From NCBI GenBank assembly GCA_015067885.1, contig SVLO01000017.1, positions 1-43,984 on the forward strand: a DNA stretch of 43,984 bases, written 5' to 3'. Below are positions 18,561 to 33,503 of this stretch, piece after piece; positions within the stretch are counted from its first letter, which is position 1, and each line of letters starts with the position of its first letter. The notes under the pieces were generated by a model. That model had not been told where the DNA came from, did no database searches, and saw only the letters and a program-made list of their open reading frames with translations. Source of the stretch: Oscillospiraceae bacterium. GTDB lineage: Bacteria > Bacillota > Clostridia > Oscillospirales > Oscillospiraceae. A program made the translations under genes and the position numbers.

Positions 18561-18621
18561 GAAAAATACCTCCCGGCAAATGGTTCTCCCCTCTTAAAAA
18601 AGAGAAAAATAATTAAGATAC

Positions 18622-18650
18622 ATTATACCAACTTCTCTATCCTGCGTCAA
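18622..18650 (-). promoter_or_regulatory. Promoter of glgP
   Basis: On the minus strand TTGACG (18645-18650) and TATAAT (18622-18627) are 17 bases apart. The same -35, spacing and -10 occur before glgB at 34714-34742. The leader is about 55 bases. Confidence 0.85.
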
Positions 18651-18664
18651 TAAAAGGCTTTTAT

Positions 18665-19652: not shown

Positions 19653-19686
19653 GACAGCATAGACTTTCGCAAAGGACGTGGTTCCA

Positions 19687-20889
19687 ATGTCCGACCAACT
19701 GGGCATCTATATCCATATTCCCTTCTGCCGCAGCAAGTGCGACTACTGCGACTTCTACTCCCTGTCCGGGCGCGAGGCGGACATGGACCGCTATCAAAAG
19801 GCCCTGCTGGCCCATATCAAAGAAACCGCCCCCCACGCCAAAGGCAACGAGGTGGATACTATCTACTTCGGCGGCGGCACCCCCAGCTATTACGGCGCCC
19901 ATCGTCTGAAAATCCTGCTCACCACCCTGCGCAAGCATTTCCGGGTCTGTAAAGACGCCGAGATCACCTTGGAGGCCAACCCCGACAGCGTGGACCTGCG
20001 TTCCCTGAAACAGTTACGCCGGGCCGGGTTTAACCGCATTTCCCTCGGTGTCCAGTCCGCCTGTGATGCCCACCTGCGCGATCTGCACCGCCCTCACGAC
20101 TTCCAACAGACTCAGGATGCCGTCGCCGCCGCCCGCGGGGCCGGCTTTGACAACCTGAGCCTGGACCTCATCTACGGCCTGCCCGGTCAGGACATGACCG
20201 CCTGGCAGGACACCCTGGAGCAGGTCCTTGCTTTGGGACCCGACCATCTGTCCTGTTACGGCCTGAAGGTGGAAGACGGCACCCCCCTCTCCCACCGGGT
20301 GGCCCATGGCCTTGCACTGCCCGACGACGACCTGCAGGCAGATATGTACCTCTACACCGTGGACCGACTGGCCCAGGCGGGCTTTGCCCAGTACGAGATC
20401 TCCAACTTCGCCCAACCGGGCCGGGAGTCCCGCCATAACCTGCGTTACTGGTTCACCCGCCCCTATATCGGCTTTGGTCCCGGCGCCCACTCCGACTTCG
20501 GCGGCCGCCGCTATAGCTTCGTGCGGGATTTGGACGCCTATATCGACGGCGTGCTGAACGGTTCCAATATCATCGACTCCTCCGACCTCATCCCCCAGCG
20601 GGAACGCAGCGGTGAGTACCTGATGCTCCGCCTGCGCACGACCCACGGTATCGAGGAATGGGAATACCGCCGCACCTACTATATGAACTTCGCCCCCCTG
20701 GAGGAACTGCTCCTGTCCTACCGGCGTCTTGGCTTCACTGTTCAGGAAAACGGCCGCTGGCGTTTGACACCAAAGGGGTTCCTCCTATCCAACCAGCTCA
20801 TCGGCCTGCTCATGGAGCGGCAGGAGCAATCCAGTTTGGAAACCCTCCTGCCCCGCCTGCGCCGCGAGCCGCTGTCCAATAAAGAATAA
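19687..20889 (+). CDS. hemW: HemW-type radical SAM heme chaperone
   Basis: HemW is a radical S-adenosylmethionine protein of the HemN family thought to carry heme into respiratory enzymes rather than oxidise coproporphyrinogen. The 400-residue product carries the 4Fe-4S cysteines C14, C18 and C21 in PFCRSKCDYCDF, the GGGTPS loop near residues 60-65, the LEANPDSV strand, and the C-terminal HemW domain (about 300-390). The C-x3-C-x2-C spacing without the extra cysteine of HemN supports HemW. The ATG at 19687 has AAAGGA 10 bases upstream; a GTG three codons earlier is too close to that site. It converges on the phage block with a shared terminator. Confidence 0.93.
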   Translation: MSDQLGIYIHIPFCRSKCDYCDFYSLSGREADMDRYQKALLAHIKETAPHAKGNEVDTIYFGGGTPSYYGAHRLKILLTTLRKHFRVCKDAEITLEANPDSVDLRSLKQLRRAGFNRISLGVQSACDAHLRDLHRPHDFQQTQDAVAAARGAGFDNLSLDLIYGLPGQDMTAWQDTLEQVLALGPDHLSCYGLKVEDGTPLSHRVAHGLALPDDDLQADMYLYTVDRLAQAGFAQYEISNFAQPGRESRHNLRYWFTRPYIGFGPGAHSDFGGRRYSFVRDLDAYIDGVLNGSNIIDSSDLIPQRERSGEYLMLRLRTTHGIEEWEYRRTYYMNFAPLEELLLSYRRLGFTVQENGRWRLTPKGFLLSNQLIGLLMERQEQSSLETLLPRLRREPLSNKE

Positions 20890-20923
20890 AAACATCCCCG
20901 ACCGGCGGTCGGGGATGTTTTTA
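20889..20923. terminator. Bidirectional terminator between hemW and the phage block
   Basis: Arms AAACATCCCCGACC and GGTCGGGGATGTTT with a 3-base loop, flanked by A and T runs. It touches the hemW stop on one side and the stop of the last tail gene on the other, so it ends both units. Confidence 0.92.
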
Positions 20924-21481
20924 TTCCACCATCTTCTCCAAATCGTCCCATCGCAGCTCCTGCAGGTCCTGCCAGGTCATCTGCCGCTGCTCCACCTGTC
21001 CCCAGGTCTGGTACCAAAACAGATACCGCACCAGCAAATGGGCGGGCAATATGTCCTCCACCAGTACCCGTATTCGCTCAAATTCCTCCGGAATACCGGG
21101 TACATCCGGAAACCGAACGTCCACCGTGTTGACCAGTCCTGTCTCCCGCACCATGACGTTCAGGCCGCAGCCGGCCAGCGTATCGTTCAGCGCCCTATGG
21201 GTAAATCCGTCCCCACCAATGCGCAGCAGCGCCATCAGCGCCCACGCCAGTTGTTCCGACTCTTGGGCAGCCGGACGGCGCGCAAACAGCCGTGCCACCT
21301 GTTCCAGCCCCTGGTCCCGGGCCGTCACCAGGCACATCTCTCGCTGTATCTGTTCCAGTTCCGCCTCCATCCGATCCAGCGCCCCGCCAATACACTCCAA
21401 TTCCGCCCCCAAATAGGAGTGTTCCAGCTTGTATATGCCCAGCGGCCGCAGCAGTTGCTTTATATGCTCCGCGTTACTCAT
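20921..21481 (-). CDS. Phage tail protein I-like (XkdU/DUF2313 family)
   Basis: The 186-residue product matches the P2 gpI / XkdU / YmfQ position and style: an N-terminal helical segment (HIKQLLRPLGIYKLE), a conserved middle with FARRPAAQESEQLAWALMALLR, and a C-terminal beta part with VDVRFPDVPGI. It forms part of the baseplate wedge, next to baseplate J. The C-terminus has two similar 8-residue units, TWQDLQEL and RWDDLEKM. It is the last gene of the block: only a terminator follows, whereas most phages have tail fibre genes here. Start overlaps the J stop (ATGA). Confidence 0.82.
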   Translation of the reverse strand: MSNAEHIKQLLRPLGIYKLEHSYLGAELECIGGALDRMEAELEQIQREMCLVTARDQGLEQVARLFARRPAAQESEQLAWALMALLRIGGDGFTHRALNDTLAGCGLNVMVRETGLVNTVDVRFPDVPGIPEEFERIRVLVEDILPAHLLVRYLFWYQTWGQVEQRQMTWQDLQELRWDDLEKMVE

Positions 21482-22524
21482 GCCATGGCCTCCACTGTCA
21501 ACTCACCCAGCACCGGCATCTGACCCATCTCAACGGACACATCCTTCTCCGGCTTCACCAACACATAGTTCTCCACCCCTGCAATCGTGTAGATCAGGTT
21601 ACCCAGCTTCGCTCGCAATACGTCCTGTCCCAACAGTTGTCCGGTAAAATACCCGCGCACCGCCTGCTCCACCTGCGGACAAACCAGGTCAAAATCCTGC
21701 GCCGCGATCTGTACCGACACATCCACCGTCACCGTCTCCGGTCCGGTTACCGCCACATCCACCGCGATCTCACGGTTTTTCTCCATCTGCCGGCCGATCT
21801 CGTCCAAAAGCGCCTGCTCCGGCACTCCATTTTGAGTGGCAACCACCACGTCCACCGTGCCGACCCCTCGTCTTTTCGGCAGCGCCACTGCCGCCACCAC
21901 CGCCTCAAAGGCCTCCGCGACCTGCTCGTAGTAGGCGCAGTTGGCTCCGTTTGGCAGCCGGGCAAAGCTGTCCAAAACTCGCTGGCGCAGCAGCTCATCG
22001 CTCTCCCGGTCCGCACCGCCGGTCATGGCCGTGGGATTTCTGCAGCCGGTAACTCCAACCGGCGCAGCCGCCAGCAGTGTCACGCTGCCCGCCGCCACAT
22101 TTCCCGCGTTTCCGGCCTGCTGGGCCTGAACGGGGACGTCCACGTACGTTGCCCCCACCGCCAGCACGCCGGCCTCCAGCGTGGCAAAACGCACATACCC
22201 CTGGGTCATGCACACCGTCCCCGCGGGAATGGTCCGCTCCGCTTCTCCGGCCCCATCGCTGTAAAAGCGCACCACACCCCTGGCGTATTCCGCCGCCTTG
22301 CGCTCCAGCCCACGCAACTGTGCGTGATAATCCAAATACTCCCCGGTCGCCGTCTGCGGAAAGCACTGTCGGTTCACCCAGTCCCCCTGTACGTACAGCG
22401 CGTAGATCTGCGCCGCCACCGCATATAACCGGGCGGATAGGTCGCCGCCCTCGGCTACCTCCATCCCCGTGCGCGCAGTAAAATCCGCCAGCATCTCGGC
22501 ATAAAGCTCCTCAACCGTTTTCAT
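21478..22524 (-). CDS. Baseplate assembly protein J (XkdT family)
   Basis: The 348-residue product is a Baseplate J-like wedge protein of contractile tails. It has the N-terminal helical region (VEELYAEMLADFTARTGMEV), the YLDYHAQLRGLERKAA motif, the AGNAGNVAAGSVTLL strand and the GGADRESDELLRQRVLDSF segment, all characteristic of the family. The ring of these proteins triggers sheath contraction. The gene overlaps the W-like gene by ATGA and the I-like gene by ATGA, with GGAGGAG upstream of the start. Length is in the usual 340-390 range. Confidence 0.93.
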   Translation of the reverse strand: MKTVEELYAEMLADFTARTGMEVAEGGDLSARLYAVAAQIYALYVQGDWVNRQCFPQTATGEYLDYHAQLRGLERKAAEYARGVVRFYSDGAGEAERTIPAGTVCMTQGYVRFATLEAGVLAVGATYVDVPVQAQQAGNAGNVAAGSVTLLAAAPVGVTGCRNPTAMTGGADRESDELLRQRVLDSFARLPNGANCAYYEQVAEAFEAVVAAVALPKRRGVGTVDVVVATQNGVPEQALLDEIGRQMEKNREIAVDVAVTGPETVTVDVSVQIAAQDFDLVCPQVEQAVRGYFTGQLLGQDVLRAKLGNLIYTIAGVENYVLVKPEKDVSVEMGQMPVLGELTVEAMA

Positions 22525-22877
22525 CCATTCTCCTCCAATCGCGCCGTAACCACGCTGTCCTTGCCCTGCCAGTTCAAATGCACCGTCACTTGACCGACGT
22601 CCCCCTCCTCGGCATACTCCACATCGGTCACCGTCACATCCTCACCCTCCAGCGCCTGTGCAACGTAGCTTGCGCACAGACTTGGCCGCGCACTCGGCTT
22701 CTCCCTGTACAGCAAATGCAGTTCACTGCCCAGTTCCGGCAAAAAAGGAAGGGCGCCCCGCCGTGCCATCAGCTTAAATAATACCCGCTGCAGCACCGCC
22801 GCCTCCCCCTGCAGCCGCACAAAGCCCCCCGCGCCGTCAGGAACCAGATCCCCATCCTTCATGCTCCACTCTGTCAT
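22521..22877 (-). CDS. Baseplate wedge protein W / gp25-like (XkdS position)
   Basis: The 118-residue product fits the gp25/W/XkdS lysozyme-like wedge family in size and place, between spike and J. It shows the central LFKLMARRGALPFLPELGSE region with a short helix and loop, then a conserved YREKPSARPS stretch and C-terminal beta strands (VTDVEYAEEGD). These proteins hold the sheath to the baseplate. The start has GGAGGG upstream and the gene overlaps J by ATGA. The call rests partly on gene order. Confidence 0.75.
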   Translation of the reverse strand: MTEWSMKDGDLVPDGAGGFVRLQGEAAVLQRVLFKLMARRGALPFLPELGSELHLLYREKPSARPSLCASYVAQALEGEDVTVTDVEYAEEGDVGQVTVHLNWQGKDSVVTARLEENG

Positions 22878-23288
22878 TTATGTTCCCTCCTGTCCGGCCA
22901 GCGCTTGCAGCACCGCCGCTTCGATCACGGCTTCCAGGCTCACACCGTTGACCAGCACCTCTCCCTTCAGCCGCACCTGTCCATCCCCGCTCAGACGGAT
23001 GGAGCAGCCATCTGCAAACAGCTCCAGCTCACCGGGATTCAGGTCGTTGTCCGCGGACTCCCGTTGGGCCACGATGCAGGCCGCCTCGCCATCCACGCCG
23101 GACTTCATCACCAGCACCTGCTGGCCGTTTTTCGGTTTCCAGCGGTAACCTCCCGGCGCCGCCACCGGCAGCAAACGCTGGCATCCTTCCGCGTACACGC
23201 CGGTCCGTTCTCCCTGGGCGGTTACAACTCCCATCTGGATGGTTCGTCCCTGCCCCTGAGCGCCTTTGCCCTGTTGTGAAATCCACAT
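22878..23288 (-). CDS. Baseplate spike protein, gpV-like OB fold
   Basis: The 137-residue product resembles the baseplate V spike of small contractile tails: an OB fold (about 10-85, TIQMGVVTAQGERTGVYAEG, then KPKNGQQVLVMK) followed by a short beta stretch (SIRLSGDGQVRLKGEVLVNG) that would form the trimeric needle. In phages this trimer tips the tube and pierces the target envelope. The C-terminal part is short, with no metal-binding apex motif seen. The start at 23288 has GAGGTGAGAG upstream. It sits between hub and W genes, as expected. Confidence 0.78.
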   Translation of the reverse strand: MWISQQGKGAQGQGRTIQMGVVTAQGERTGVYAEGCQRLLPVAAPGGYRWKPKNGQQVLVMKSGVDGEAACIVAQRESADNDLNPGELELFADGCSIRLSGDGQVRLKGEVLVNGVSLEAVIEAAVLQALAGQEGT

Positions 23289-23298
23289 CTCTCTCACC

Positions 23299-24252
23299 TC
23301 ACAGCATGATGTCCGGGGGCAGCAACTCCAATCGCGTTCGGTAGCCGCCATCATCCATGCTCACCACCGCCCGGGCCACGCGCCACGTCCCGTCAACAGC
23401 CGCGTCCCCTCGGGCCACCTCGACCAATTCCCCCGGCCAGGCCGCAAAGACCACCGGCAGTTCCAGCTCCAGCTCCACCTGTCGCTGGCGGGACTTCTCC
23501 AACTGATACTGTCCTTGATAGCGCATGGCCTGATAATCGCTCTTCTCCGGCATGGTGATCATCCTGCGGCTCTGTCCGCCGACATCCTTAAAAGCCTGAT
23601 CCACAACCTTCTCCACCTTGGCCGACTTCCCGCGATCCCATACCCAAACCTCGCTGAGTACTCCGTACCGGCAAAATTTGATGATCTGCGCTGTGACCGC
23701 CGTCTTCCCATCGACCTTTCGCGTCACACTGTCGTCCCACCCGGCCAAAATCAGCCTGCCCTTCCGGTCAAACCGTGGGGTAATGCCGCCGTAAAACCGT
23801 GCAAACTGGTACAGCACCGACCACTCACTGCTGCCTGCGGATATGGCAAACCCCCGCACCGCGGGAAGGGCGTCCTGCCTGGCCACCTCAATGCCGTAGG
23901 GCCGCACGTGATCACGCAAAATATCCTCCGGCGTGGCTGCCGCGTACTCCGCGCTCTGGGCCTCGTTGTCCAGCAGCAGCGCCGCCAGCCCCCGTCCACT
24001 GATCTCCAACCGCTCTCCGCCGTCCGCCCGGGTCACCACGCACTCGTCCACCACGCCTACAAACACAGTTTCCTCTCCTTCACAGGCCTCAAACCGCACC
24101 GCTCCCGCCAGCAGTCGCTCCTGCCCCGCGCTCCACAAGCAGACCACCCGAAAGCTGTCACAGGGCGTGGCGCAGCCGTAGTCCAGCTCCCACTCCAGCA
24201 TGGCGGGCAGCTCCCAGCGCTTTCCATCTGCCGTTAACAGCCACCCATTCAC
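23299..24252 (-). CDS. Tail hub protein (XkdQ / gpD-gp27 family)
   Basis: The 318-residue product corresponds to the XkdQ/YqbQ hub that joins the tail tube to the spike. Visible parts are an N-terminal beta barrel (ADGKRWELPAMLEWELDYG), the SEWSVLYQFARFYGGITPRFDRKGRLIL region and the C-terminal RYQGQYQLEKSRQRQVELEL and WRVARAVVSMDDGGYRT strands. The start is GTG at 24252 in a GTGA overlap with the LysM gene stop; a longer upstream frame crosses that gene and is rejected. Length matches PBSX XkdQ closely. Confidence 0.8.
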   Translation of the reverse strand: MNGWLLTADGKRWELPAMLEWELDYGCATPCDSFRVVCLWSAGQERLLAGAVRFEACEGEETVFVGVVDECVVTRADGGERLEISGRGLAALLLDNEAQSAEYAAATPEDILRDHVRPYGIEVARQDALPAVRGFAISAGSSEWSVLYQFARFYGGITPRFDRKGRLILAGWDDSVTRKVDGKTAVTAQIIKFCRYGVLSEVWVWDRGKSAKVEKVVDQAFKDVGGQSRRMITMPEKSDYQAMRYQGQYQLEKSRQRQVELELELPVVFAAWPGELVEVARGDAAVDGTWRVARAVVSMDDGGYRTRLELLPPDIML

Positions 24253-24806
24253 TTGATCACCACTTTCTGCCCGGGCCAGATCTTGTTGGGATTTTTGATG
24301 TCCGGGTTCTTCTTGAGAAGCTGCTCCAGTGTCACTCCGTAGCGCTTTGCAATGGCCCACAGGGTGTCCCCCTTCACCACCGTGTGTACCACACCGTCCT
24401 GCTGCTCGGACTGTTGGGCCTTCTGCGCCACCTCTTTCAGCTTGCCGTCATAACAGCCCAGATCCTCCCAAAAGGTAAAGCTGTAGCTCACATAGTCGGG
24501 CCGCGGCTCCTGCTTCAGCCTCAGCTCCACAAAGTGGGCATTGGCCGTCTGCCATAGGGGGTGGATCAGTTTCCCCGGCCCCTCCCGGTAGAACACATTG
24601 GCCAAGGCACCAAATTGGGCGTAGGCATTCTTGCCCACAAACTCGCCCTCCCCCCGCATCACGCGCCGGGTCCTGCCCAGATCCTGCAGCCGATACACTC
24701 CAAAGGGAACCTTGTCCACCGCCACCTGCCGCTGGTAGTCGATGGTATAAACCCTTGGATTGTGCGGCCAGGTATAGTTCTTGTATTTCATCGGGCTCAA
24801 TTTCAT
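24249..24806 (-). CDS. LysM-domain tail protein (XkdP family)
   Basis: The 185-residue product has an N-terminal beta-rich domain (FGVYRLQDLGRTRRVMRGEG) of the XkdP/gp53-like type and a C-terminal LysM domain (about 139-185: HTVVKGDTLWAIAKRYGV and NPNKIWPGQKVVIK). LysM binds peptidoglycan; in phage tails this protein lies at the baseplate around the hub. The ATG at 24806 has GAGGTG 6 bases upstream; a GTG three codons earlier lies inside that site. In PBSX the gene before this one is the tape measure; here it is the 152-residue gene. Confidence 0.87.
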   Translation of the reverse strand: MKLSPMKYKNYTWPHNPRVYTIDYQRQVAVDKVPFGVYRLQDLGRTRRVMRGEGEFVGKNAYAQFGALANVFYREGPGKLIHPLWQTANAHFVELRLKQEPRPDYVSYSFTFWEDLGCYDGKLKEVAQKAQQSEQQDGVVHTVVKGDTLWAIAKRYGVTLEQLLKKNPDIKNPNKIWPGQKVVIK

Positions 24807-24833
24807 CTTCGTCACCTCTGCCCCATTATCTCA

Positions 24834-25292
24834 TCAAAACAGCCGCAGGGGGCCGTCATACCTCCGGGCGTCCCGTTCAAAGGCCGCGTCCAGCTCCCCG
24901 GCCAGCTCTCGCCGCACCCCCGACCGCATATCCTCCGCGCTCCGGTCCCCTCGACGCTCCGCCTCACGGGTGTCCTCCGCCCGGCGCAAACGCAGTCCTC
25001 TGCTCTGCCCGACCGTTTCCGCTCTCCCACGGACCACCGCCCGCTCCAGCGCCGCCAACCGCTCCATGGGGCCTGCCCGCTTTCCGTCCTCCGATACAGC
25101 CTCCCCGCCGTGCGTTTTTGCGTCCGCCGCCCATTCCCCCTGCTCCGGAGCAGTGTCCCGGCGCGTGGTCTGCCCCATTTCCTCTTTCTTCTCCCCACCG
25201 GGCCGGACCACCCACCGCCGCCACATAAACGCGTCGTCCTCGTCCTCCCGCTCCTGCACCGGCTCCAGCAGCAGTTCCAAATAGTCGGTCAC
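24834..25292 (-). CDS. Charged helical 152-residue protein in the tape-measure position
   Basis: I do not recognise the family. The protein occupies the slot of the tape-measure gene, between the frameshifted tail chaperone and the LysM protein. The N-terminus (MTDYLELLLEPV) is followed by an acidic patch, a disordered-looking middle (40-75) and an Arg/Glu-rich, helix-prone C-terminal half (75-140), ending in ELDAAFERDARRYDGPLRLF at the limit of the frame. No membrane segments or peptidase motifs are seen. Tape-measure proteins are usually 500 residues or more, so this would set a very short tail, or be another tail component. The start is GTG in a GTGA overlap with the chaperone extension. 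Confidence 0.6.
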   Translation of the reverse strand: MTDYLELLLEPVQEREDEDDAFMWRRWVVRPGGEKKEEMGQTTRRDTAPEQGEWAADAKTHGGEAVSEDGKRAGPMERLAALERAVVRGRAETVGQSRGLRLRRAEDTREAERRGDRSAEDMRSGVRRELAGELDAAFERDARRYDGPLRLF

Positions 25293-25917
25293 TTCCGTAA
25301 CCCCCGTTTCATCCGTTCAAATCGTTCCCGGTCAAACCCCTGGTTGACCGACTCCTCCCACGTAGCCAGCGGCGCCCCGCAACTGACGCACCGCTCCTCC
25401 ATGGCCTTGTCCCTGCAGCCGGGACACAAACCCGCCAGTTCTTCCTCATCGTCCAATATCAGGTTCAACGCGCACCACAAAAACTCCCGGTCCGTCATGC
25501 TCCGGACCCGGTCCTCCGTGGGCAGGGCTGAGAAGGTTCGCAGCACGCGCCAGTACAGCCGCTCCTCCCGGGCGTGCCCCAGGCTTTTTTTAGCCTGTCC
25601 GCCTCCTCCTCATCCATCCCCGGACCGGGATTGACCCGTCGGTTAAACTCCATCCACAGCCGGGCCAACCCTCCGATCTGCTCCGCCGTCAGTTCCCTCA
25701 AAACCTGCTCTCCGTCCCGGAACTTAGGCGCGCCGTGGCATAAAACCGCCCTGGCCAGCAGGCACGCGTTGGCACACAGGGCCATCTCCCGCTCCTCACC
25801 TGCCAAACTGCGGGCCTCCGCCCTGGCCTGCAGCACCTCAAACGCACTCAGTAACCGCAGCTGCTGCCCATGCTCCAGCTTCAGCCGTTCCGGCCCGCTC
25901 AACAGCCCCCAATCCAT
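25289..25917 (-). CDS. Tail assembly chaperone, with programmed -1 frameshift extension
   Basis: Frame zero starts at 25917 and encodes 140 residues, ending at 25495. At 25585-25591 there is an A-AAA-AAA heptamer placed exactly in the zero frame; a -1 slip joins 111 residues of frame zero to 98 residues of the -1 frame, ending at 25289, for a 209-residue product. The -1 frame is fully open and reads like real protein (LYWRVLRTFSALPTEDRV), whereas the zero-frame tail after the slip is low-complexity and rich in Gly, Cys and Pro. Lambda gpG/gpGT and other phages use this to make two tail chaperones that load the tape measure. The extension holds a zinc-ribbon pattern. No good start exists for the second frame alone apart from a weak GTG. 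Confidence 0.85.
25585..25591 (-). other. Slippery heptamer for -1 ribosomal frameshifting
   Basis: On the minus strand A-AAA-AAA is in phase with codons CTA-AAA-AAA-GCC. A 6-base-pair stem, CCTGGG with CCCGGG around GCACG, begins 1 base after it and could assist slippage, although the spacer is shorter than the usual 5-9 bases. Confidence 0.85.
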
Positions 25918-25919
25918 GC

Positions 25920-26309
25920 TCACACCGCCGTCACAATGCGCTTGGAGGCCACTACCTTCACCTTCTCCAGCACCATGGTGCCCAAACCGGCCTCCTCGCT
26001 GATGTTGCTCCACTGGCAGTCGGAATAAATGATACGTTTGTCCGGCTTGACGATCACCAGCGAAAAGCCCTCCAGCTTGTAAAAATCAATGCCGTCCTGA
26101 AGCGCCTCGTCGGTGGCATAAAGCCGTGCCAGCTCCAGCTCGTGCTTGACCGAGCCGGCCATGGTAGCCACCGGCTCCTTCTCACCAAAGGCCTCCACCG
26201 TGCCGCTGGTCTTGGTCGCCTTGGCGCTGTAGCTCTGCACCACGGCCACCTTTTTACCTCCCACCTCCAGGTAAATATCATTGCTGGTGGGAAATCCTGT
26301 CACCGTCAT
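25920..26309 (-). CDS. Tail tube protein (XkdM family)
   Basis: The 129-residue product lies directly after the sheath gene and resembles XkdM-like tube proteins in size and in its beta-rich sequence (GFPTSNDIYLEVGGKKVAVV, then SGTVEAFGEKEPVA and MVLEKVKVVAS). Rings of such subunits form the rigid inner tube through which DNA or the spike passes. The ATG at 26309 has a strong AAGGAGGG upstream, consistent with a high-copy structural protein; the longer frame from 26396 overlaps the sheath gene. The gene ends 2 bases before the chaperone start. Confidence 0.85.
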   Translation of the reverse strand: MTVTGFPTSNDIYLEVGGKKVAVVQSYSAKATKTSGTVEAFGEKEPVATMAGSVKHELELARLYATDEALQDGIDFYKLEGFSLVIVKPDKRIIYSDCQWSNISEEAGLGTMVLEKVKVVASKRIVTAV

Positions 26310-26320
26310 CCTGTCCCTCC

Positions 26321-27373
26321 TTAAACCGTAATGTGGGCGCTCAGCCAAATCTGATTGATGCCATGGGTCACCGTAAAGGCAAAGTCCACCAGGCATCTGG
26401 TAGGCTCCTGACTATCCTGTACCACGCTGACGCCGTCATAGGCCGTGATGATCTCCCGGCTGAGCTTGTTCTCCAGCTCCAGCACCACCTGAGAGCGGAT
26501 AGCCCCCCGGCTCTGGGCCGTATTCTTTGCCCGGCGGAACCGGCTTTTCAGGGCATTGCGAATGGTGGGAATAACGTCATCCACCACCAAAATCGCCGCC
26601 AGATCTTTCCAGGTACCGTCCGCCGCACCCGCCGTGGTGGTCCGCGTGGTCACCCCACGCACCACACTCACCGCGCCGGCCACCCGCTCCGCCACCGTCA
26701 CACCGCCGCGAATCAGCACGTCCAGTTCCTCATCGCTGTATGCCGCCGCCAAACCGTACAGACCCATCAGCTGCGCACCGCCAAGGGGAACCGCAGGATC
26801 GCTCAGCCCCGCGATCGCTCCGGCCACCGCCGCCGCCAGCGCCACTGCGGAACCGACCGTTCCCTCTTCATCCACGCAGCCGGGGGCCACCAGCACCACG
26901 CGCTCGCTGTTCAGCCCGGTCGCCCGGGCCACCAGTTCCTCCACACGCTCCTCCGCGGCGCCCGCCGCCACGGCAATGCGCTCTCGCTGGGCCGCCGAAG
27001 CCGCCGCCACACTGTCCCGCAGCGCCTGCTGCACCGCCAAATCGGTGCTGTCGCACAGCACCACCGCCAGATCCTCCGTAGCCGCCATAGCCGCAAAGGC
27101 TTCGGCATAGTCCTGGTCCACCACAGGGAATACCGTCACCTGGGCCGCGCCATTCTGCAGCAGCAGCCGCACCAGCGCCGTGGCATCCTCCCCCTGTTCG
27201 GCGCCAAAAGCCTCCACCGCCTGTTCATAACGGGTAATGGTCCATACCGACTGGGCCGGGTCCGTCAGCTTCACTGCCAAACCCACATTCTTTCTCCCCG
27301 CAGACCCGCTCACCGCGGTCGCCGCCTCATACTCGGTATAGACTCCCGGTCTTTCATGGGCCGTAATACTCAT
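26321..27373 (-). CDS. Contractile tail sheath protein (XkdK family)
   Basis: The 350-residue product is the sheath that contracts around the tail tube. The N-terminus (HERPGVYTEYEAATAVSGSAG) and the C-terminal strands (EPTRCLVDFAFTVTHGINQIWLSAHITV, residues about 322-349) match the handshake interactions known for sheath proteins; the middle has an Ala-rich domain with VVLCDSTDLAVQQALRDSV. The short length fits XkdK-like sheaths rather than T4 gp18. The start is ATG at 27373 in an ATGA overlap; a TTG three codons earlier is too near the GAGGGGA site. Confidence 0.93.
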   Translation of the reverse strand: MSITAHERPGVYTEYEAATAVSGSAGRKNVGLAVKLTDPAQSVWTITRYEQAVEAFGAEQGEDATALVRLLLQNGAAQVTVFPVVDQDYAEAFAAMAATEDLAVVLCDSTDLAVQQALRDSVAAASAAQRERIAVAAGAAEERVEELVARATGLNSERVVLVAPGCVDEEGTVGSAVALAAAVAGAIAGLSDPAVPLGGAQLMGLYGLAAAYSDEELDVLIRGGVTVAERVAGAVSVVRGVTTRTTTAGAADGTWKDLAAILVVDDVIPTIRNALKSRFRRAKNTAQSRGAIRSQVVLELENKLSREIITAYDGVSVVQDSQEPTRCLVDFAFTVTHGINQIWLSAHITV

Positions 27374-27867
27374 CCGTTCCAATCCCCTCTCAAGGTAAAA
27401 TCAAGGATGTCCGCCGCCTCGTCACCGCTGGCCCACACCCAGCCCTCGCAGCTTATGGCGCACTCCAGCCGCAGCAGCCCCTCCTTTTGGTCAAATTCGA
27501 TCTCCTTCGCCGTCAGCTTACGTACCGTCAACCCGTTGGGCCGCTTGCTGTGCAGCACCTGTACAAGTCGCTGCAGCAGTTGTCTGCACGCCTGCGCCCC
27601 CACCTCAGCCGGGGCCAAAATATCCAGCGCGAACTCCAGCGCCGCCTTGCGTCCGTACCACTCCACCACCCGGCCGGTTTCCTCATCCAGCCGTTGGCCC
27701 AAATAGTCCTGCAGCCCCACAGGCTGACATTCCAGCTTGTCCAGCCCCACCAGCACAACAGCCTCTCCGGGTCCTTGACGGCACCCCCTGGGCCAACTGG
27801 CCACCGCCGGGATCTCGTTGTCCCGCAGGAACTGTGCCATGCTCTCCTGTAACGCATCCGGTTTCAT
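27370..27867 (-). CDS. Phage tail completion protein, XkdJ position
   Basis: The 165-residue product is not recognised by motif. It lies between the second connector gene and the sheath, the place of xkdJ in PBSX, where a tail terminator or neck protein is expected. The first half has KPDALQESMAQFLRDNEI and WPRGCRQGPGEAVV, and the second half is alternating beta and helix, ending in GDWNG. ATGA overlaps both neighbours, so translation is coupled. Role inferred from order only. Confidence 0.6.
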   Translation of the reverse strand: MKPDALQESMAQFLRDNEIPAVASWPRGCRQGPGEAVVLVGLDKLECQPVGLQDYLGQRLDEETGRVVEWYGRKAALEFALDILAPAEVGAQACRQLLQRLVQVLHSKRPNGLTVRKLTAKEIEFDQKEGLLRLECAISCEGWVWASGDEAADILDFTLRGDWNG

Positions 27868-28187
27868 TCCCACGCCTCCTCCAGCACCGCCCACCAGTGT
27901 GTCAGTTCCCCGCCGGCGTATACCGGCCGCGCATTTCTCAGGCTGTATCGCACACCCTCCGCCTCCAGCCCGCATTTTCCTTCAAGGGGGACGTGCGCCG
28001 GTCCCAGGTAGATAAACCGCCCCTGCTTTTTCCACCCCAGCGGGGAGGGGACGGCCCTGGCCGTCCCCCGGGTCCTCTCCGGCTGAAGCATGACCTTCTC
28101 CACCGCACCTTCCGGATACTGTGGGGTGTACACCGTCACCGCGCGACCATACCGCTCCAGCTCCCTGTCGATGTTTTCTCGCATCAT
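27864..28187 (-). CDS. Phage head-tail connector protein, XkdI/XkdH position
   Basis: The 107-residue product is small and beta-rich, with ERYGRAVTVYTPQYPEG near the start and RFIYLGPAHVPLEG in the middle. This resembles minor head-tail joining proteins (stoppers) that follow the capsid gene in PBSX-like phages, although no diagnostic motif is seen. It overlaps the genes on both sides by ATGA. Two in-frame ATG codons stand next to each other at the start. Function inferred from position and size. Confidence 0.6.
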   Translation of the reverse strand: MMRENIDRELERYGRAVTVYTPQYPEGAVEKVMLQPERTRGTARAVPSPLGWKKQGRFIYLGPAHVPLEGKCGLEAEGVRYSLRNARPVYAGGELTHWWAVLEEAWE

Positions 28188-28543
28188 ACGCCATCCACTC
28201 CGCAGAACATAAATTTCTCATCCCGCAGCCAGCCGACCATCAGGTTCTCCGCCTGCCTGCGCAGCCGGTCGGCCCGCCGTCCGGCGTCGCCGGCCTGTAC
28301 GCTCATATCTCCGGCAGTAAACCGTTCCGCCTGACCCACTGCCCGGCTCACCTCCAGCCCGGCCAGAGCCATCCACGCCCCGGCCAGCACAAAGCACTGC
28401 CCGCAGTCCTCCGGCTTCACGCCCGGACGCAGCCGCTCCCGCATCTGCCGACAGGCCGCCTCACACAGGCCGTCCAGGGCGCCGTACTCCCGCTCCTCCA
28501 CCCGGCCCAAAGACCGGGCGATCTCCGCCATCTGCCGGACCAT
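28184..28543 (-). CDS. Phage head-tail adaptor protein, XkdH position
   Basis: The 119-residue product is mostly helical with four or five cysteines (CEAACRQ, EDCGQCFVLAG). It follows the major capsid gene, where the adaptor that docks on the portal is encoded in related phages; such adaptors are small helical proteins. No family motif is recognised. The start ATG overlaps the capsid stop (TAATG) and has AAGGTG upstream inside the capsid gene. Assignment by position. Confidence 0.58.
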   Translation of the reverse strand: MVRQMAEIARSLGRVEEREYGALDGLCEAACRQMRERLRPGVKPEDCGQCFVLAGAWMALAGLEVSRAVGQAERFTAGDMSVQAGDAGRRADRLRRQAENLMVGWLRDEKFMFCGVDGV

Positions 28544-29556
28544 TACACCTTCAGCACCTTGGCCGCATCACCGAACAGCTTGGCAAAACCGCTGGTGCTG
28601 GTAATGGCCGCGCGCTCCAGCTGGCGGTCAATGAGCTTGTCGTACTCGATCATCACGTCCCCGCCCTGCACCATCTCCAGGGCGTAATTGCGGTCCAGAC
28701 CGATCATGGTGTTGGCGGGCAGGGCGCTGGTGCGCAGCAGGGTGGCGCCCAGGGGCGTGGTCAGCTTGCCGGTACCCTGGAAGTTCAGGCCCGTGGCGGG
28801 GTTCTGGAACTCGGGCAGCTTGAGCATCTTGACCATCATATCGTTGCTCACCAGCAGAGTGTTCATCTCATAGGGGTCAAATTTGGCCCAGAAATCCACC
28901 AGATCCTCATAGGTCAGCACGCCCTCGCCCGCCGCCTGAAACACCTGCGCGGGATTGTTGTTGCCGTCGCCGTTGATCAGCACGTCGATGGCGTCCTCCA
29001 AATGCATACGGTTGATGTGGGCGCCGATCTGACGCAGGGTAACGGAAAACAGGTCCAGCTTCTGATGACGAATAGCCTCGTAGGAAGCCACCAGCATACG
29101 GCCTCGCTTGTGCAGCTGCACCAGATTGTCCTGCACCTTCACCGTGGTGGCGGGAATGGCAGCGCCCTCCTCCACCCGGCGCAGCTTCTTGGCGTCATCG
29201 CCGGTCTGGGCGGTGATGGAGCGGTAGTCCATGCCGTCAAACTTGGTCACCGCCGCGGTAATGGCGGGCAGCATATTCTGCTCCTCCATGCCCTGACGCA
29301 CGCTGCGTGCAATGTACTCGGGGAACAGCACAGCCGAGTCCGCCGTGCGGAAGAATTTCTCCACCACGTCGCTGCCCGCGCCCTTCACCTTGATATCAAA
29401 GCGCTTGAGCTGGCGTTGGAAGGCGTCCAGACCCTCCATAGCCGTACCCTTATACTGCTGGTCGGGGTCCATGCTCTCCAGCACCTGAGTAAAGCTCTTG
29501 CCCGCTTCATGGTACATACCCTTGTCCAGCTTCAAATTGTCAAACTGATATGCCAT
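28543..29556 (-). CDS. Major capsid protein (HK97 fold)
   Basis: The 337-residue product is the shell protein: an N-terminal arm with FDNLKLDKGMYHEAGKSF, a region around GMEEQNMLPAITAAVTKFDG, then the peripheral and axial domains with SYEAIRHQKLDLFSVTLRQIG and the TMIGLDRNYALEM strand near the end. These fit HK97-type capsids of PBSX-like phages. A strong GGGAGGAG site precedes the ATG, expected for a protein needed in hundreds of copies. The gene follows the decoration gene and protease gene, as in phages using an in-cluster maturation protease. Confidence 0.87.
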   Translation of the reverse strand: MAYQFDNLKLDKGMYHEAGKSFTQVLESMDPDQQYKGTAMEGLDAFQRQLKRFDIKVKGAGSDVVEKFFRTADSAVLFPEYIARSVRQGMEEQNMLPAITAAVTKFDGMDYRSITAQTGDDAKKLRRVEEGAAIPATTVKVQDNLVQLHKRGRMLVASYEAIRHQKLDLFSVTLRQIGAHINRMHLEDAIDVLINGDGNNNPAQVFQAAGEGVLTYEDLVDFWAKFDPYEMNTLLVSNDMMVKMLKLPEFQNPATGLNFQGTGKLTTPLGATLLRTSALPANTMIGLDRNYALEMVQGGDVMIEYDKLIDRQLERAAITSTSGFAKLFGDAAKVLKV

Positions 29557-29574
29557 CGTTCTCTCCTCCCTTTC

Positions 29575-29913
29575 TTACAGGCAGATAACGGCCTTGCCGT
29601 CCTGCTCCGTCTGAACCACCAGCGCCTCCACGCCGCTGTCATCGGCCTGCACGCCGCCCTTGCCGTCGGCAGCCAGCTTCACCCGGCCCAGGCCCACCTC
29701 ACCGGTGATGCCCACCTGCATAAAGCCGCCCACCTGCACCGCCACGGCGCCCTTTCGCGCCTGACCGGCCACACCGCAGAAGACGTCGCCCTGGGCGCAG
29801 GGGCCCACGGTCCCGTTGGCAGTCACCTTGACCACCTGACCATCCTCCACGCCTTCGTCGGCGTAAAAGGTGGCCATCACATTGCCAATGTCATCAAACG
29901 AAATCTTGCTCAT
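29575..29913 (-). CDS. Capsid decoration-like protein
   Basis: The 112-residue product is beta-rich and glycine-rich, with repeated GxV patterns (GQVVKVTANGTVGPCAQGDVFCG, then GGFMQVGITGEVG). This is typical of the capsid-stabilising decoration proteins (DUF2190 type) encoded just before the capsid gene in many phages. It lies between the protease and capsid genes with a strong CAGGAGGAG site. A small structural role is likely; identity is inferred from composition and place. Confidence 0.72.
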   Translation of the reverse strand: MSKISFDDIGNVMATFYADEGVEDGQVVKVTANGTVGPCAQGDVFCGVAGQARKGAVAVQVGGFMQVGITGEVGLGRVKLAADGKGGVQADDSGVEALVVQTEQDGKAVICL

Positions 29914-29970
29914 CCTTGCTCCTCCTGAATGTTATTTATCCGTAAGCGGTCATCCCGCCGGGATACAAAA

Positions 29971-30888
29971 TCAAATCAGAAACGCGCCGTCAGCCGGCTG
30001 TTCCCGCTCCTGCCCACCGTGACCCAGCTGCGTCATGACAGGATACCGCTTCGCCGCCTTTTCCGCGTAAACCCGCCGCAGCTCCAGCAGTTCCCCCTCA
30101 CCCAGCCTGTCCGCAATGCGCTCCATCACACCGTGTTCCACACCCTCGCCGGTCAGACCGTTCAGCCGCACCACCTCACGGCGCAGCGCCGCCAAATACC
30201 GCCTGCCCAGCTCCGCCTGTTTCTCCAACTGTTCCACGTCCTCGGCCCAGCCCTCCTTCCCGGCCAGTTCCTTCATAGCGTGATACCCCTTGTGCTTGAG
30301 TACCCCCGCCTTGGGCTGAGCCGGCACCGCCACAAAGGACCACTCAAAGGCATCCGCCGCCCCCCGCAGGCTGGTGTAGCACAGCTCGCCGTCGTAGATC
30401 TCGCCCTTCCTGTGGGCGCAGGCCCCCGCCTGCTTGCCGCACACGGAGCATACCGCCTGCTTTACCGCGCAGCCTACGCTGACCTCCCGCAGGATACCGC
30501 CCTCCAGCTGTGCAATAAGTTCCTCGTTGCCCGGGGTCCGCAGCACGTAGGCGTACCCCTTCAAAAAGCGGCCCATGTCCCCCGCCGCCGTCATCACGCC
30601 GGGTTCCTCCACCACCTCGGTGCGGTACAGCCGGGCAGTCTGCCCCGCCGCCGTCCACTGGTGGTCAAAAATGCCCGTCTTGCCCACAAACAGCTTCGCC
30701 AGTTCCTCCAGGGTGTCGGCCTCAAACCGTTCCCCGTCCCGGTCGATCTCGTTGTCGCACAGCCGCACCGCAAAGGTGTAGACCTCCTGTGCCTCCAGCG
30801 GTTTTCGGCTGAACCGGTTGATCAGCTCCAGCTCCCGGCTGTCCGGCTGCACCTGGGCCGTGCGGCCAACCTGCTTTTTTACGTTCAT
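29971..30888 (-). CDS. Putative capsid maturation protease / scaffold (XkdF-like)
   Basis: The 305-residue product has an N-terminal protease-like domain (about 35-200) with VRLCDNEIDRDGERF and a GIFDHQW segment carrying a candidate catalytic histidine, GGILREVSVGC with a candidate catalytic serine, and EWSFVAVPAQPKAG. The C-terminal third (205-275) is helical and may act as scaffold. In the middle lies a cysteine cluster, C-x2-C-x6-C-x-H (CSVCGKQAGACAH), likely zinc-binding. The gene follows the portal with ATGA overlap and a GGAGGAAGG site. Gene order (portal, protease, decoration, capsid) supports the call; catalytic residues are inferred. Confidence 0.75.
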   Translation of the reverse strand: MNVKKQVGRTAQVQPDSRELELINRFSRKPLEAQEVYTFAVRLCDNEIDRDGERFEADTLEELAKLFVGKTGIFDHQWTAAGQTARLYRTEVVEEPGVMTAAGDMGRFLKGYAYVLRTPGNEELIAQLEGGILREVSVGCAVKQAVCSVCGKQAGACAHRKGEIYDGELCYTSLRGAADAFEWSFVAVPAQPKAGVLKHKGYHAMKELAGKEGWAEDVEQLEKQAELGRRYLAALRREVVRLNGLTGEGVEHGVMERIADRLGEGELLELRRVYAEKAAKRYPVMTQLGHGGQEREQPADGAFLI

Positions 30889-32030
30889 CCTTCCTCCATG
30901 TCCCCTTTCAAATTTTCCGCCTGACGGCGATACAGCTCCGCCCTGGCCTGCTCCACCTCATCCTGCAGCTTGATTTGACTCCAGTTGACCTTCACGCTGC
31001 CACCAAAGCCGTTCAGCCGCAGCCAAGTCTCGCAGATCCGCTCCACCACCGGCTCCAGACTTCTGCGAATGGCCCCGATCTCACTGGTCATCAGGTCGGC
31101 CTGCTGGCTGCTCATACGCTCGGTGCTGGACCAGGACAGGCCCAGCATAAAGGGCGGGATACCCGTCCGGGCAATGAGCTGCTCCAAAATTTGTCGGACC
31201 GGTACCTCACTGTCCAGCACCTGATTGTCCGCCCCGATCACCCGGATATCCACGTCGCCCATGGCCACAAAGTCCCGCACACTGCCCTGACTTCCCGCCT
31301 GCATGGCCCGGCTCCACTCCCGGGCCACCTGCTGACAGCGTTCCCGGGCGTACAGCTCGTCCCCCTCGCCGTTTTTGCACACCACGGCAAAGCGCACGTT
31401 GCCCACCCGCTCCCAGTTCAGCCCGATGGCCTGATAGATCTTCATCAGAATTTCCGTCATAAAGGGCATAGACCGCAGCAGGGATACGCCGTAAGGGTTC
31501 CCCACCTCCGGCTGAAATGGGGTAAACAGCAGCAGTTCCTGATAGGGAAAGGGTTCCGGCTCTCCCACCCCCTGCTCACACAGCTCAAACTCCAACGGAG
31601 AGTCCCCCTGCCGGATGACCACCGCCGCCGGGTCGCACCACAAAAGGGCGGCCACATCCCGACCTTGCCGGTCCGGTACGATCTCGCCCACCGCTCTGCC
31701 GCAGGTCAGCATACTGTCCAAATACCCATCTAAAAAAGCCTGCAGCCCCCGCTGCCCTCGCCCGGCCGGCACCGTTCGCAAAAACAGATCCATCCCCTCC
31801 TGGGCCCGGCGGTCCTCCGTTTCCACCTCCACACCGCCGCACAGACGGATCAGCTTCAGGATAGCCGCGTCCACAATGGGTACAGCCTCCCGAATGGCCC
31901 GGTACAACCGGCTGTCCGCCGCCTGCAGCGGCACATAGTGTTCCAGCGCCCCAAAGGGGTGCTGTGGGTTGCTGCGCACCTGCACCGCCGCCCCCTGCAC
32001 CGGGGTGTGCTTCTTCTGAAATAATTTCAT
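30885..32030 (-). CDS. Phage portal protein (DUF935/XkdE type)
   Basis: The 381-residue product resembles DUF935/Mu gp29-type portals or XkdE: it has the PFGALEHYVPLQ opening, the DSMLTCGRAVGEIV segment, a ring-core region with QPEVGNPYGVSLLRSMPFMTE, and the C-terminal LGLSWSSTERMSSQQADLM motif common to portals. It forms the dodecameric gate at the capsid vertex. The chosen ATG at 32030 has AAAGGGAG 8 bases upstream; an ATG at 32048, overlapping the terminase stop, is a possible alternative start. A long upstream extension of this frame lies inside the terminase gene and is rejected. Confidence 0.85.
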   Translation of the reverse strand: MKLFQKKHTPVQGAAVQVRSNPQHPFGALEHYVPLQAADSRLYRAIREAVPIVDAAILKLIRLCGGVEVETEDRRAQEGMDLFLRTVPAGRGQRGLQAFLDGYLDSMLTCGRAVGEIVPDRQGRDVAALLWCDPAAVVIRQGDSPLEFELCEQGVGEPEPFPYQELLLFTPFQPEVGNPYGVSLLRSMPFMTEILMKIYQAIGLNWERVGNVRFAVVCKNGEGDELYARERCQQVAREWSRAMQAGSQGSVRDFVAMGDVDIRVIGADNQVLDSEVPVRQILEQLIARTGIPPFMLGLSWSSTERMSSQQADLMTSEIGAIRRSLEPVVERICETWLRLNGFGGSVKVNWSQIKLQDEVEQARAELYRRQAENLKGDMEEG

Positions 32031-32044
32031 CCACTCGCTCCCTT

Positions 32045-33343
32045 TCATATTCTGCCGGACCTCAGCACGCTTCCGGCAAATACCGGCGCCTGCCCGGTCT
32101 GTCCCGCCACCACCGTGGCGGCAAAATAGCGTATGTCGTCCATGGCGTGGTCGTCCTGCTTTCGCACCCGGTCTCCGGTCCCATCCTCCTGCCAGCGGTA
32201 CAGACCAAACTCCCGAATGGCGTCCCGGCACCCCTTGCAGATAACCAGTTTCCCTTTCCGCAGCAGCTCCGCCGTAATCCGAATTCCACTCAGCACGTCA
32301 TTCTTCGCCTTTATCACCCGCCAGCCCTCCCGCCGCAGCACTTCGATAAAGCTGGCCGCCGACGGGTCCACCACCACGCACCAGATGTCCCGCCCCTGGG
32401 CCAGCCTGCGCAGCCGTTCTGCATACTCCCCATCGGTCAGTTGCCGTCCGGACCGCTTGGAGTCGTAGTAGTACTCCCCCACCCGGTACCACACCCCATC
32501 CCGTAGCCCCCACAGGCCGAAGGACGCCGGATTGATGGTCCCGTAATCGCAGGAAATGCACCAGCGTTCCATGACTCCGCCGGGCGCCTCGGGACAATCC
32601 TTCTCCCGAAACTGGTCATAGACCAGGCCTTCTGCCGCCACCCATTCTCCCAGTACAAACCTGCGGTAAAAGGTCCCCTTAAACATCTGCGCGTATCGTT
32701 TCCGCACCTTCTCGGACAGGGCGGGGTTGTCCTTCATCGTAAAATGCAGATACAGCGCGTTTCGTTCCTGGGCTCTGCAGATCCACTCCTTGTAAAACCA
32801 ATGCTGCGGCCCCTCGGGATTGCAGGAAAACCACAGCTTCGCCCCCTCCACCGAGCAGCGGGCGCAGGCCTGCTCCACAAAGGACCGTGGCATCAGTACC
32901 ACCTCGTCCAGCAGCACCCCGGCCAGGGTCAATCCCTGTATCAGGTCGGCGCTCCCCTCGTCCTTGCCGCCAAACAGATAAAAAACGTTCTGCCGCTCCC
33001 CCAGCGTCACCGTCAGCTGACTTCGGCTGATCCGATGCTCACACACAAACCCCATCTCACCCAGGGCGGGCAGCAGCTCCCGCAGCAAATTGCGCCGCAC
33101 GGACCCCACTGTCTTGCCGCACAGGGCAAAGGCCTTTCCGTCAAACCGCTCCATGGCCCAGCAAAAGAAGGACAGCCCCAAACACGCCGTTTTGCCGCTT
33201 CGCACCGCGCCGTCGCAAATGATGGCGTCCCATTTCTTCCGGCTCCTCCACCAGCCCATCACCCGTTTCTGCTTCGGGGACAGCCGGGCGAACCGCCCTC
33301 CGGCGCCCCCCTCACAAGTTACGCCCGTCGTGTCCTTTCCCAT
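32045..33343 (-). CDS. Terminase large subunit (PBSX XtmB-like), intact ATPase and nuclease
   Basis: The 432-residue enzyme packages DNA into capsids. The ATPase has Walker A GAVRSGKT at 45-52 and Walker B LLDE at 144-147, and a coupling motif SCNPEG near 173-178. The nuclease has the acidic residues D266 (SCDYGT), D326 (VVDPSA) and D402/D403 (HAMDDIRY). All catalytic elements are present, so the packaging motor looks functional. The start has GAGGTG upstream. It is the first gene of the block: no small terminase gene precedes it, although nearly all headful-packaging systems have one. Confidence 0.93.
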   Translation of the reverse strand: MGKDTTGVTCEGGAGGRFARLSPKQKRVMGWWRSRKKWDAIICDGAVRSGKTACLGLSFFCWAMERFDGKAFALCGKTVGSVRRNLLRELLPALGEMGFVCEHRISRSQLTVTLGERQNVFYLFGGKDEGSADLIQGLTLAGVLLDEVVLMPRSFVEQACARCSVEGAKLWFSCNPEGPQHWFYKEWICRAQERNALYLHFTMKDNPALSEKVRKRYAQMFKGTFYRRFVLGEWVAAEGLVYDQFREKDCPEAPGGVMERWCISCDYGTINPASFGLWGLRDGVWYRVGEYYYDSKRSGRQLTDGEYAERLRRLAQGRDIWCVVVDPSAASFIEVLRREGWRVIKAKNDVLSGIRITAELLRKGKLVICKGCRDAIREFGLYRWQEDGTGDRVRKQDDHAMDDIRYFAATVVAGQTGQAPVFAGSVLRSGRI

Positions 33344-33356
33344 AAATTCACCTCAC

Positions 33357-33385
33357 ACAAGTGGTAAAATCAGGGCCAAACTTGT
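33357..33385. promoter_or_regulatory. Inverted repeat in the terminase-carboxypeptidase gap (possible operator)
   Basis: ACAAGT (33357-33362) and ACTTGT (33380-33385) are spaced 23 bases centre to centre, about two turns of DNA, in the region between the divergent terminase and carboxypeptidase genes. No convincing sigma-A promoter for the phage block is visible here, so control by a separate regulator is possible. Low confidence. Confidence 0.35.
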
Positions 33386-33503
33386 ACGTTTGCGTCCCTC
33401 TAAGTGAAAAATCCCCTCAAAAAATTTTCCATCGCCCGGCCCGCATAGTCCGTCTGCCCGCTCCACATCCTTTGTGCAGAACAAAATGTTTGGAGGAATT
33501 TCC

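Follow-up and report, generated by a model that had tools for sequence, protein, structure and literature searches.

A compact, vertically inherited phage-derived operon of the Oscillospiraceae as a candidate gene transfer agent

The 43,984 nt stretch analysed here (the window; an Oscillospiraceae bacterium, GenBank assembly GCA_015067885.1, contig SVLO01000017.1) carries on its minus strand, between positions 20921 and 33343, a block of 19 intact and mostly overlapping open reading frames (ORFs; g01 to g19) which runs from the gene for a phage terminase large subunit (TerL) to that for a gp48-like baseplate protein. This 12.4 kb block, present in a single copy in its genome, appears to be the principal operon of a phage particle that the Oscillospiraceae have domesticated and pass on vertically, most likely a gene transfer agent (GTA), a reading to which we assign a probability of about 0.7. 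We keep to the term "candidate GTA", since it is from sequence that host DNA is inferred to be packaged and transferred. The anatomy is that of a GTA because the parts that fill a head with DNA are the most tightly selected, the part that would recognize the element's own DNA has been lost and genes for autonomous replication are absent. The data suggest an ancient, so far uncharacterised system by which the bacterium packages, and perhaps shares, its own DNA. A GTA had already been proposed in a sequence-only reading of the window, and the proposal is now supported by the conservation of the site, by dN/dS ratios and by the agreement between host and block trees.

A protein search with the major capsid protein (MCP) was positive in 57 of the 63 other genus genomes. 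Identities are 73-96% except for one 73-residue fragment (G056), and 55 of these 57 genomes have a single match when split or fragmentary hits in metagenome-assembled genomes (MAGs) are set aside. The host carboxypeptidase gene dac adjoins the block in 42 of the 46 genus loci fetched; three others stop at a contig edge and one (L068) has the block elsewhere. All 19 genes are present in 26 of the 46 loci and at least 16 in 40, the remaining six being cut by contig ends, and the block spans 12.0-13.4 kb between TerL and g19 wherever both ends could be measured. The search for the block at the same locus in relatives, which the sequence-only reading had put forward as a check, thus brought no refutation. 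Its placement between hemW and the carboxypeptidase gene holds on the dac side across the genus, but on the hemW side only in the five closest loci (L042-L046); other genus loci have other host genes there, for example recG. In the block-less genome G039, rluD, hemW and further host genes are followed by a dehydrogenase gene 114 bp from dac, so that the site is empty there, and G037 and G042 show the same dehydrogenase-dac junction.

Beyond the genus, a TerL search of 350 family genomes gave hits in 178, spread over 69 of 106 genera, part of the hits being terminases of other phages. Forty family loci were fetched from among the strong hits, almost every one from a separate genus. Of these, 34 have at least 16 of the 19 genes and 22 have the full set; the remaining loci are cut short (L107, L118), reduced (L126, L135) or hold TerL only (L139, L140). 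For 30 genera, a tree of nine block proteins shares 15 of 27 splits with a tree of the host protein RpoB, whose reading frame was chosen by phmmer, while 2000 relabellings gave a maximum of 3; RpoB and block distances are correlated with a Mantel r of 0.83, and splits with support of at least 95 do not conflict. This agreement is strong evidence that the block is vertically inherited; within the genus, its constant site beside dac shows it to be immobile. Since only carriers enter the trees, these show how the element travels where it is kept and not how frequently it is lost. Across the order, a capsid profile detected relatives in 70 of 394 genomes and 42 of 168 genera, with exactly one match in 69 of the 70, and for 29 genomes the trees of the head set and of RpoB have 18 of 26 splits in common (random maximum 3), without conflict at support 90.

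Selection was estimated as dN/dS (Nei-Gojobori) in the three closest genus pairs and in the trio formed by the window and its two sisters. The main structural genes lie at 0.04-0.15 in the six pairs that are most informative, similar to host neighbours, which bears out the earlier suggestion that selection keeps the particle; the ratios of close pairs are far below 1, so this second check brought no refutation either. The three closest genus pairs give 0.08-0.09 for TerL, 0.06-0.11 for the portal, 0.04-0.07 for MCP, 0.06-0.11 for the sheath, 0.06-0.12 for the tube and 0.06-0.09 for baseplate J, with 0.06-0.16 for dac and 0.03-0.06 for glgB of the host. In the window trio, where the small terminase (TerS) is missing, the values are 0.11-0.15 for TerL, 0.05-0.06 for the portal, 0.04-0.07 for MCP and 0.10-0.14 for the sheath, with host dac at 0.10-0.18 and hemW at 0.10-0.12; TerL is under selection even in this lineage. 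After removal of ORFs of at most 300 aa and of two duplicate loci, 111 TerL sequences could be compared. Walker B and the three nuclease aspartates are invariant in them, and the Walker A lysine is present in 109, the position being gapped in two with a late ORF start.

In nearly all relatives a gene of ~95 codons lies directly upstream of TerL; contig NZ_JADCKF010000011.1 of Pseudoflavonifractor gallinarum DSM 107456, for instance, has TerS together with all 19 genes. It matches Pfam Terminase_2 over profile positions 58-130 of 141 only, with one of three examples above the cut-off, while the full-length TerS of L162 matches positions 3-134. The DNA-binding N-terminus of TerS is undetectable in 73 of 80 family loci. 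By profile, the window's genome, which is 87% complete and consists of 43 contigs, and its two sisters yielded no TerS, whereas four of four control genomes were positive. The earlier statement that a small terminase is missing is thus true in the window but peculiar to its lineage, and judged from these searches the absence is a lineage-specific loss. With TerS gone, packaging in this lineage would start without any small terminase. The TerS of RcGTA, the GTA of Rhodobacter capsulatus, lacks an N-terminal DNA-binding domain, and its authors tie this loss to random packaging (PMC6854486).

The features of the block and of its surroundings are the following.

33378-33389, minus strand: promoter-like motif ACGTACAAGTTT, ~45 nt upstream of the TerL start
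32045-33343, minus strand: g01, terminase large subunit (PF03237, 1e-11; PF04466, 2.3e-7; phrog_2; Walker and nuclease residues intact)
30885-32030, minus strand: g02, portal (phrog_30703 portal, 3.7e-160; Phage_portal, 1.6e-8, below the Pfam cut-off)
29971-30888, minus strand: g03, putative head maturation protease or scaffold, by position (phrog_16951, of unknown function, 2.1e-113)
29575-29913, minus strand: g04, decoration-like head protein (phrog_4588, virion structural protein)
28543-29556, minus strand: g05, major capsid protein (PF25209 Phage_capsid_4, 7e-16; phrog_3922, 8e-114)
28184-28543, minus strand: g06, connector-like by position (no family match; order conserved)
27864-28187, minus strand: g07, connector-like by position (no family match; order conserved)
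27370-27867, minus strand: g08, tail completion-like by position (phrog_25177, of unknown function, 4.6e-31)
26321-27382, minus strand: g09, contractile tail sheath (PF04984, 1.7e-12; PF17482, 5e-10; phrog_279)
25920-26309, minus strand: g10, tail tube by position, ORF open to 26396 (phrog_27038, unknown, 2e-54; phrog_985 virion structural protein, 3e-4)
25495-25917, minus strand: g11, first part of a tail assembly chaperone-like protein, ORF open to 26013 (position and -1 frameshift arrangement with g12)
25584-25591, minus strand: slippery run AAAAAAAG (an A7G run), site of a putative -1 frameshift joining g11 to g12
25289-25546, minus strand: g12, zinc-ribbon-like frameshift extension (weak DZR_2 match, 0.004, below cut-off)
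24834-25292, minus strand: g13, short protein in tape measure position (conserved ends, hypervariable middle)
24249-24815, minus strand: g14, LysM / DNA_circ_N baseplate hub-like protein (PF01476, PF07157)
23299-24249, minus strand: g15, gp44-like baseplate hub, ORF open to 24360 (PF22255, 4.5e-7; phrog_177, 3e-41)
22878-23288, minus strand: g16, spike-like by position, ORF open to 23354 (phrog_25991, of unknown function)
22521-22877, minus strand: g17, gp25-like baseplate protein (phrog_975 baseplate, 1.6e-5; weak PF10934 and PF07409, below cut-off)
21478-22524, minus strand: g18, baseplate J-like protein (PF04865, 1.5e-52)
20921-21481, minus strand: g19, gp48-like baseplate protein (PF10076, 1.7e-4, below cut-off; phrog_521, 8.5e-13)
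20884-20926, no strand assigned: terminator common to the block and the converging hemW, with a 20-pair stem found in the window sequence
33474-34628, plus strand: host dac (carboxypeptidase), conserved neighbour outside the particle
19678-20889, plus strand: host hemW, neighbour in the window's subclade only, by locus comparison

Pfam, PHROG and ORF inspection confirm the compact head-tail block that had been described, with its gene content, order, strand and intact frames. Pfam cut-offs are passed by TerL, the capsid, the sheath, the LysM protein, the hub and baseplate J; PHROGs are the basis for naming the portal, the decoration protein and the gp25-like and gp48-like proteins, and position for the tube, the connectors, the protease, g08, g11-g13 and g16. 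The portal ORF is open to 32231 and its internal start was picked by comparison. Eighteen genes had been counted earlier, and although the ORFs number 19, eighteen is also a fair count of products, g11 and g12 forming a -1 frameshift pair. These two are split by a -1 register in 43 of the 43 loci with separate ORFs, and an A6N run lies in canonical slippery phase in 42 of them, against a background of 35 A-run sites in this phase in 551,331 nt of other block genes; in 24 loci both matches fall within one ORF and 19 loci are without the pair. A conserved -1 frameshift in the tail chaperone is a pattern known from phage biology, and the putative g11/g12 arrangement matches it. A tape measure gene of normal length was not found in the block. 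Its position is occupied by g13, a protein of 152 aa without Pfam or PHROG match, which is unlike a normal tape measure protein in having conserved ends (MTDYLExLLE; DxAFERDARRYDG) and a hypervariable, low-complexity middle, and whose shortness implies an unusually short tail, predicted to fall far below that of PBSX in length.

The ends of the block are as first reported, with the stem of the terminator on the hemW side and, between the block start and the diverging dac gene, a 130 bp gap which contains the promoter-like motif. The G+C content of the block is 0.60-0.65 per kb, the same as in the flanks, where the large ORFs are host-like by translation (glycogen genes, rluD, hemW). No tRNA was found in the window by ARAGORN. 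As stated before, integrase, replication and lysis genes are not seen in the block, and inspection of the translations, without a family search, revealed no integrase or repressor in the flanks.

Lysis genes directly follow g19 in 5 of the 40 family loci: a holin gene (PF05105) in L105, hemolysin-like and M15-peptidase genes in L132 and L115, and this peptidase gene also in L127 and, cut short, in L123. The L127 endolysin, when searched in the window's genome, gave a match to its C-terminal domain only. A putative tail-fibre-like N-terminal motif occurs beside the block in L092, L231, L237, L329 and L348. The lysis and receptor-binding genes missing here may be encoded at another site, or in the 13% of the genome that the assembly lacks.

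The tail varies across the order, where 20 additional loci plus L092 and L093 were compared. Sheath and tube are present in three of eight loci of family f26 and only head and hub in the other five; the f7 locus has a sheath and stops at a contig edge. None of 13 f23 loci gave a sheath match; in some, most clearly L234 and L235, a tube domain is fused behind a connector, others show no tube, and two have the head genes only. Somewhat short of even odds, in our estimate, is the wider scenario in which a single GTA-like element, already present in the last ancestor common to the sampled Oscillospirales families, has descended vertically and been pared down in parallel. It would have kept a full contractile tail in the Oscillospiraceae and part of f26, a sheath-less form with the tube domain fused to the connector or with no tube in f23, head and hub in part of f26 and the head only elsewhere. 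The DNA-recognition half of TerS would have been lost repeatedly, and TerS wholly in the window's lineage. Such an element would account for the GTA-like packaging seen in gut Oscillospiraceae and might be an older relative of FpGTA, the GTA of Faecalibacterium prausnitzii. Contractile, sheath-less, hub-only and head-only versions exist in related hosts, and they allow a direct approach to the question of which parts a GTA needs at minimum.

Several observations weigh against the block being a vertically kept GTA. For the window's genome, 87% complete, a lysis gene, a receptor-binding gene and TerS were not found. The N-terminal helix-turn-helix (HTH)-like region is kept in 7 of 80 TerS of the family, 4 of 12 of f23 and 6 of 8 of f26; in loci outside these groups it is present in four of five. 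MCP is missing from 6 of the 63 other genus genomes, and dac and glgB without an adjacent block are seen in four, so the block is dispensable. Twelve of 27 splits at the family level and 8 of 26 at the order level are unshared between the trees, and the order-level Mantel r is only 0.52 (maximum permuted 0.32). Capsid and TerL served as queries, so that any lineage with a surviving tail but no head would have escaped detection. The g13 gene evolves fast, with dN/dS of 0.36-0.68 in the three closest pairs, and more diverged pairs give higher ratios, for example 0.48 for TerL and 1.54 for g07 between L047 and L110; these rise in block and host genes alike and were not relied on, as we distrust the simple dS estimate there.

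The block might instead encode a headed tailocin or a PBSX-like killing particle, kept to puncture competitors and with only incidental DNA in its head. The complete contractile tail and baseplate of the family forms would suit such a function, PBSX carries random host DNA without transferring it (PMC7667829; PMC12946183) and the R-type tailocin prophages of Clostridium are described as retaining capsid genes (PMC10538166). We nevertheless regard it as unlikely. A tailocin has lost its capsid and DNA-packaging genes or leaves them unused, whereas here they are present, intact and under purifying selection, with the catalytic residues of the terminase and low dN/dS of TerL, portal and MCP persisting. 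Moreover, the sheath is unmatched in 13 of 13 f23 and 5 of 8 f26 loci while TerL, portal and MCP stay, the reverse of tailocin decay, though MCP was the query. A domesticated particle with another role, either a contractile injection device loaded with protein or a system for programmed lysis, is improbable in our view; it could draw on the unusually short tail implied by g13 and on the lysis genes beside the block in five family loci (L105, L115, L123, L127, L132), but has to explain why the motor for DNA packaging is conserved, along with portal and capsid.

If the block were a satellite or helper-dependent element that another phage packages, or a structural donor for other prophages, the missing lysis and receptor-binding genes would be explained; in one 55-kb record (L329), moreover, an integrase gene adjoins the block. 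Genes for integration and regulation are the usual cargo of satellites, however, with few structural ones, while the block is structural only and vertically inherited, and we hold this explanation to be very improbable. Hardly any credit is left for a recently inserted prophage remnant now in decay, the alternative that the sequence-only reading had kept. It is true that integrase, replication, lysis and TerS genes are not seen in the block and that IMG/VR lists such blocks, the window's own included, as proviruses. Patchy presence, mobility genes or broken frames and relaxed dN/dS would mark a prophage of this kind; what we found is a block that keeps its site and gene order throughout the genus, with a tree congruent with that of the host, ratios far below 1 and intact frames, and decay is rejected.

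PBSX of Bacillus subtilis, a larger defective prophage with lysis genes, has a gene order similar to that of the block. The block differs from it in its size of 12.4 kb, in the very short gene in tape measure position and in its co-inheritance across the family. RcGTA is siphovirus-like and alphaproteobacterial; its gene families are different, and unlike RcGTA the window lineage has no TerS at all. The contractile tail is common to the block and PBSX, whose particles are reported to contain random host DNA (PMC7667829). Vertical inheritance, a compact structural cluster and, in relatives of the block, a TerS without N-terminal DNA-binding domain are shared with RcGTA (PMC6854486). FpGTA, as described in PMC12946183, resembles the block in its Oscillospirales host, the absence of replication genes, conservation in the genus and a TerS without obvious DNA-binding domain. 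Its structural genes are complemented by lysis and receptor-binding genes at a second locus, which is not established for the block, and it is podovirus-like with no visible tail, whereas the block has sheath, tube and contractile baseplate. The Clostridium R-type tailocin prophages, as described in PMC10538166, likewise kept capsid genes and a contractile tail cassette on domestication; they differ in their ~38-46 kb with an integrase or resolvase, none of which the 12.4 kb block has, and across the order it is the tail genes that are the variable part of the block clusters.

Three of the six features by which GTAs are defined in PMC9662315 are found here: the proteins are caudoviricete-derived, the genome, which in GTAs often occupies several loci, is fully endogenized (at a fixed chromosomal site in the genus, a second locus not being established) and inheritance is mostly vertical, with co-diversification with the host. 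The other three concern the particles: mostly random host DNA inside them, for which the packaging published for the Oscillospiraceae gives indirect support only, a head too small for the GTA's own genome and delivery of the packaged DNA to other cells. In the candidate GTA, one promoter would drive the operon, which would build a capsid; in the particles formed, the terminase would load this capsid with cellular DNA, the element's own genes not being preferred, delivery would be by a very short contractile tail that ends in a complete baseplate, and lysis and receptor binding would be encoded elsewhere. If the block does package DNA and deliver it, then a heritable machine for gene exchange is present in much of a family that dominates in gut and rumen. 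It would also give a genetic handle on the GTA-like packaging that virome sequencing has seen in the family without an operon: a virome study reports such packaging in the Oscillospiraceae (Onthomonas, 3 of 25 events), where the MAG was searched and no operon named, and an operon is reported only for Faecalibacterium (PMC12946183).

A literature search, judged from result listings apart from the papers cited, turned up no published description of this cluster. Viral databases hold hundreds of such clusters as proviruses; in IMG/VR, 335 stretches encode capsid relatives, and 73 of the best 80 are on records of at most 14.3 kb. The window's block itself has an entry there (L142), labelled an uncultivated provirus; this record of 12,423 bp begins and ends where the block does, and its capsid gene is 100% identical to that of the window. 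In the 55-kb IMG/VR record L329, a tyrosine-recombinase-like gene at 18256-19428 immediately follows the block, apparently part of an unrelated element inserted alongside. One head-only cluster and one block stand on the GenBank "Bacteriophage sp." scaffolds MT835508.1 (L162) and MT835769.1 (L163) from human faeces. By inspection these look bacterial, with a ribosomal-protein operon and with recG and thyA-like neighbours; a search by accession gave no paper that would tie them to a study of virus-like particles (VLPs), PMC8361208 being no more than a likely source.

As to regulation, a scan of 84 loci showed the motif GTACNASTTT ahead of the first block gene in 28, with 48 matches in total in the 1,566,048 bases of those loci. 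SOS control is not supported: GAACN4GTTC does not occur in the window, and of 43 upstream regions two contain it. A regulon of AHGTACAACTTT was considered and rejected: 35 sites occur in 22 genomes, 18 of them at the block, and the other 17 are not above a reversed-pattern control (20 sites), four being coding coincidences inside recG. That the promoter-like motif of the block is used at other loci is a lead, not a result. Off the block, AHGTACAACTTT stands in a promoter-like setting before two kinds of gene, in two genomes each. One is a gene of the phage protein family phrog_19695 (G007, G049), which forms a single-gene unit preceded by the block's ACGTACAACTTT motif at G007:C1:139469 and G049:C1:3869 (L278, L292, L304) and is a possible receptor-binding locus. 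Its protein was not found in the window's genome; it occurs in 8 of the 28 genus genomes with the block, in none of the 6 without it and in 2 of 10 other genera, numbers too small to prove linkage. The other is a DUF6291 gene (G041, G053), which at G041:C6:19243 and G053:C46:28464 (L303, L298) lies beside a sigma-factor-like gene, with motif and spacing as in the block promoter.

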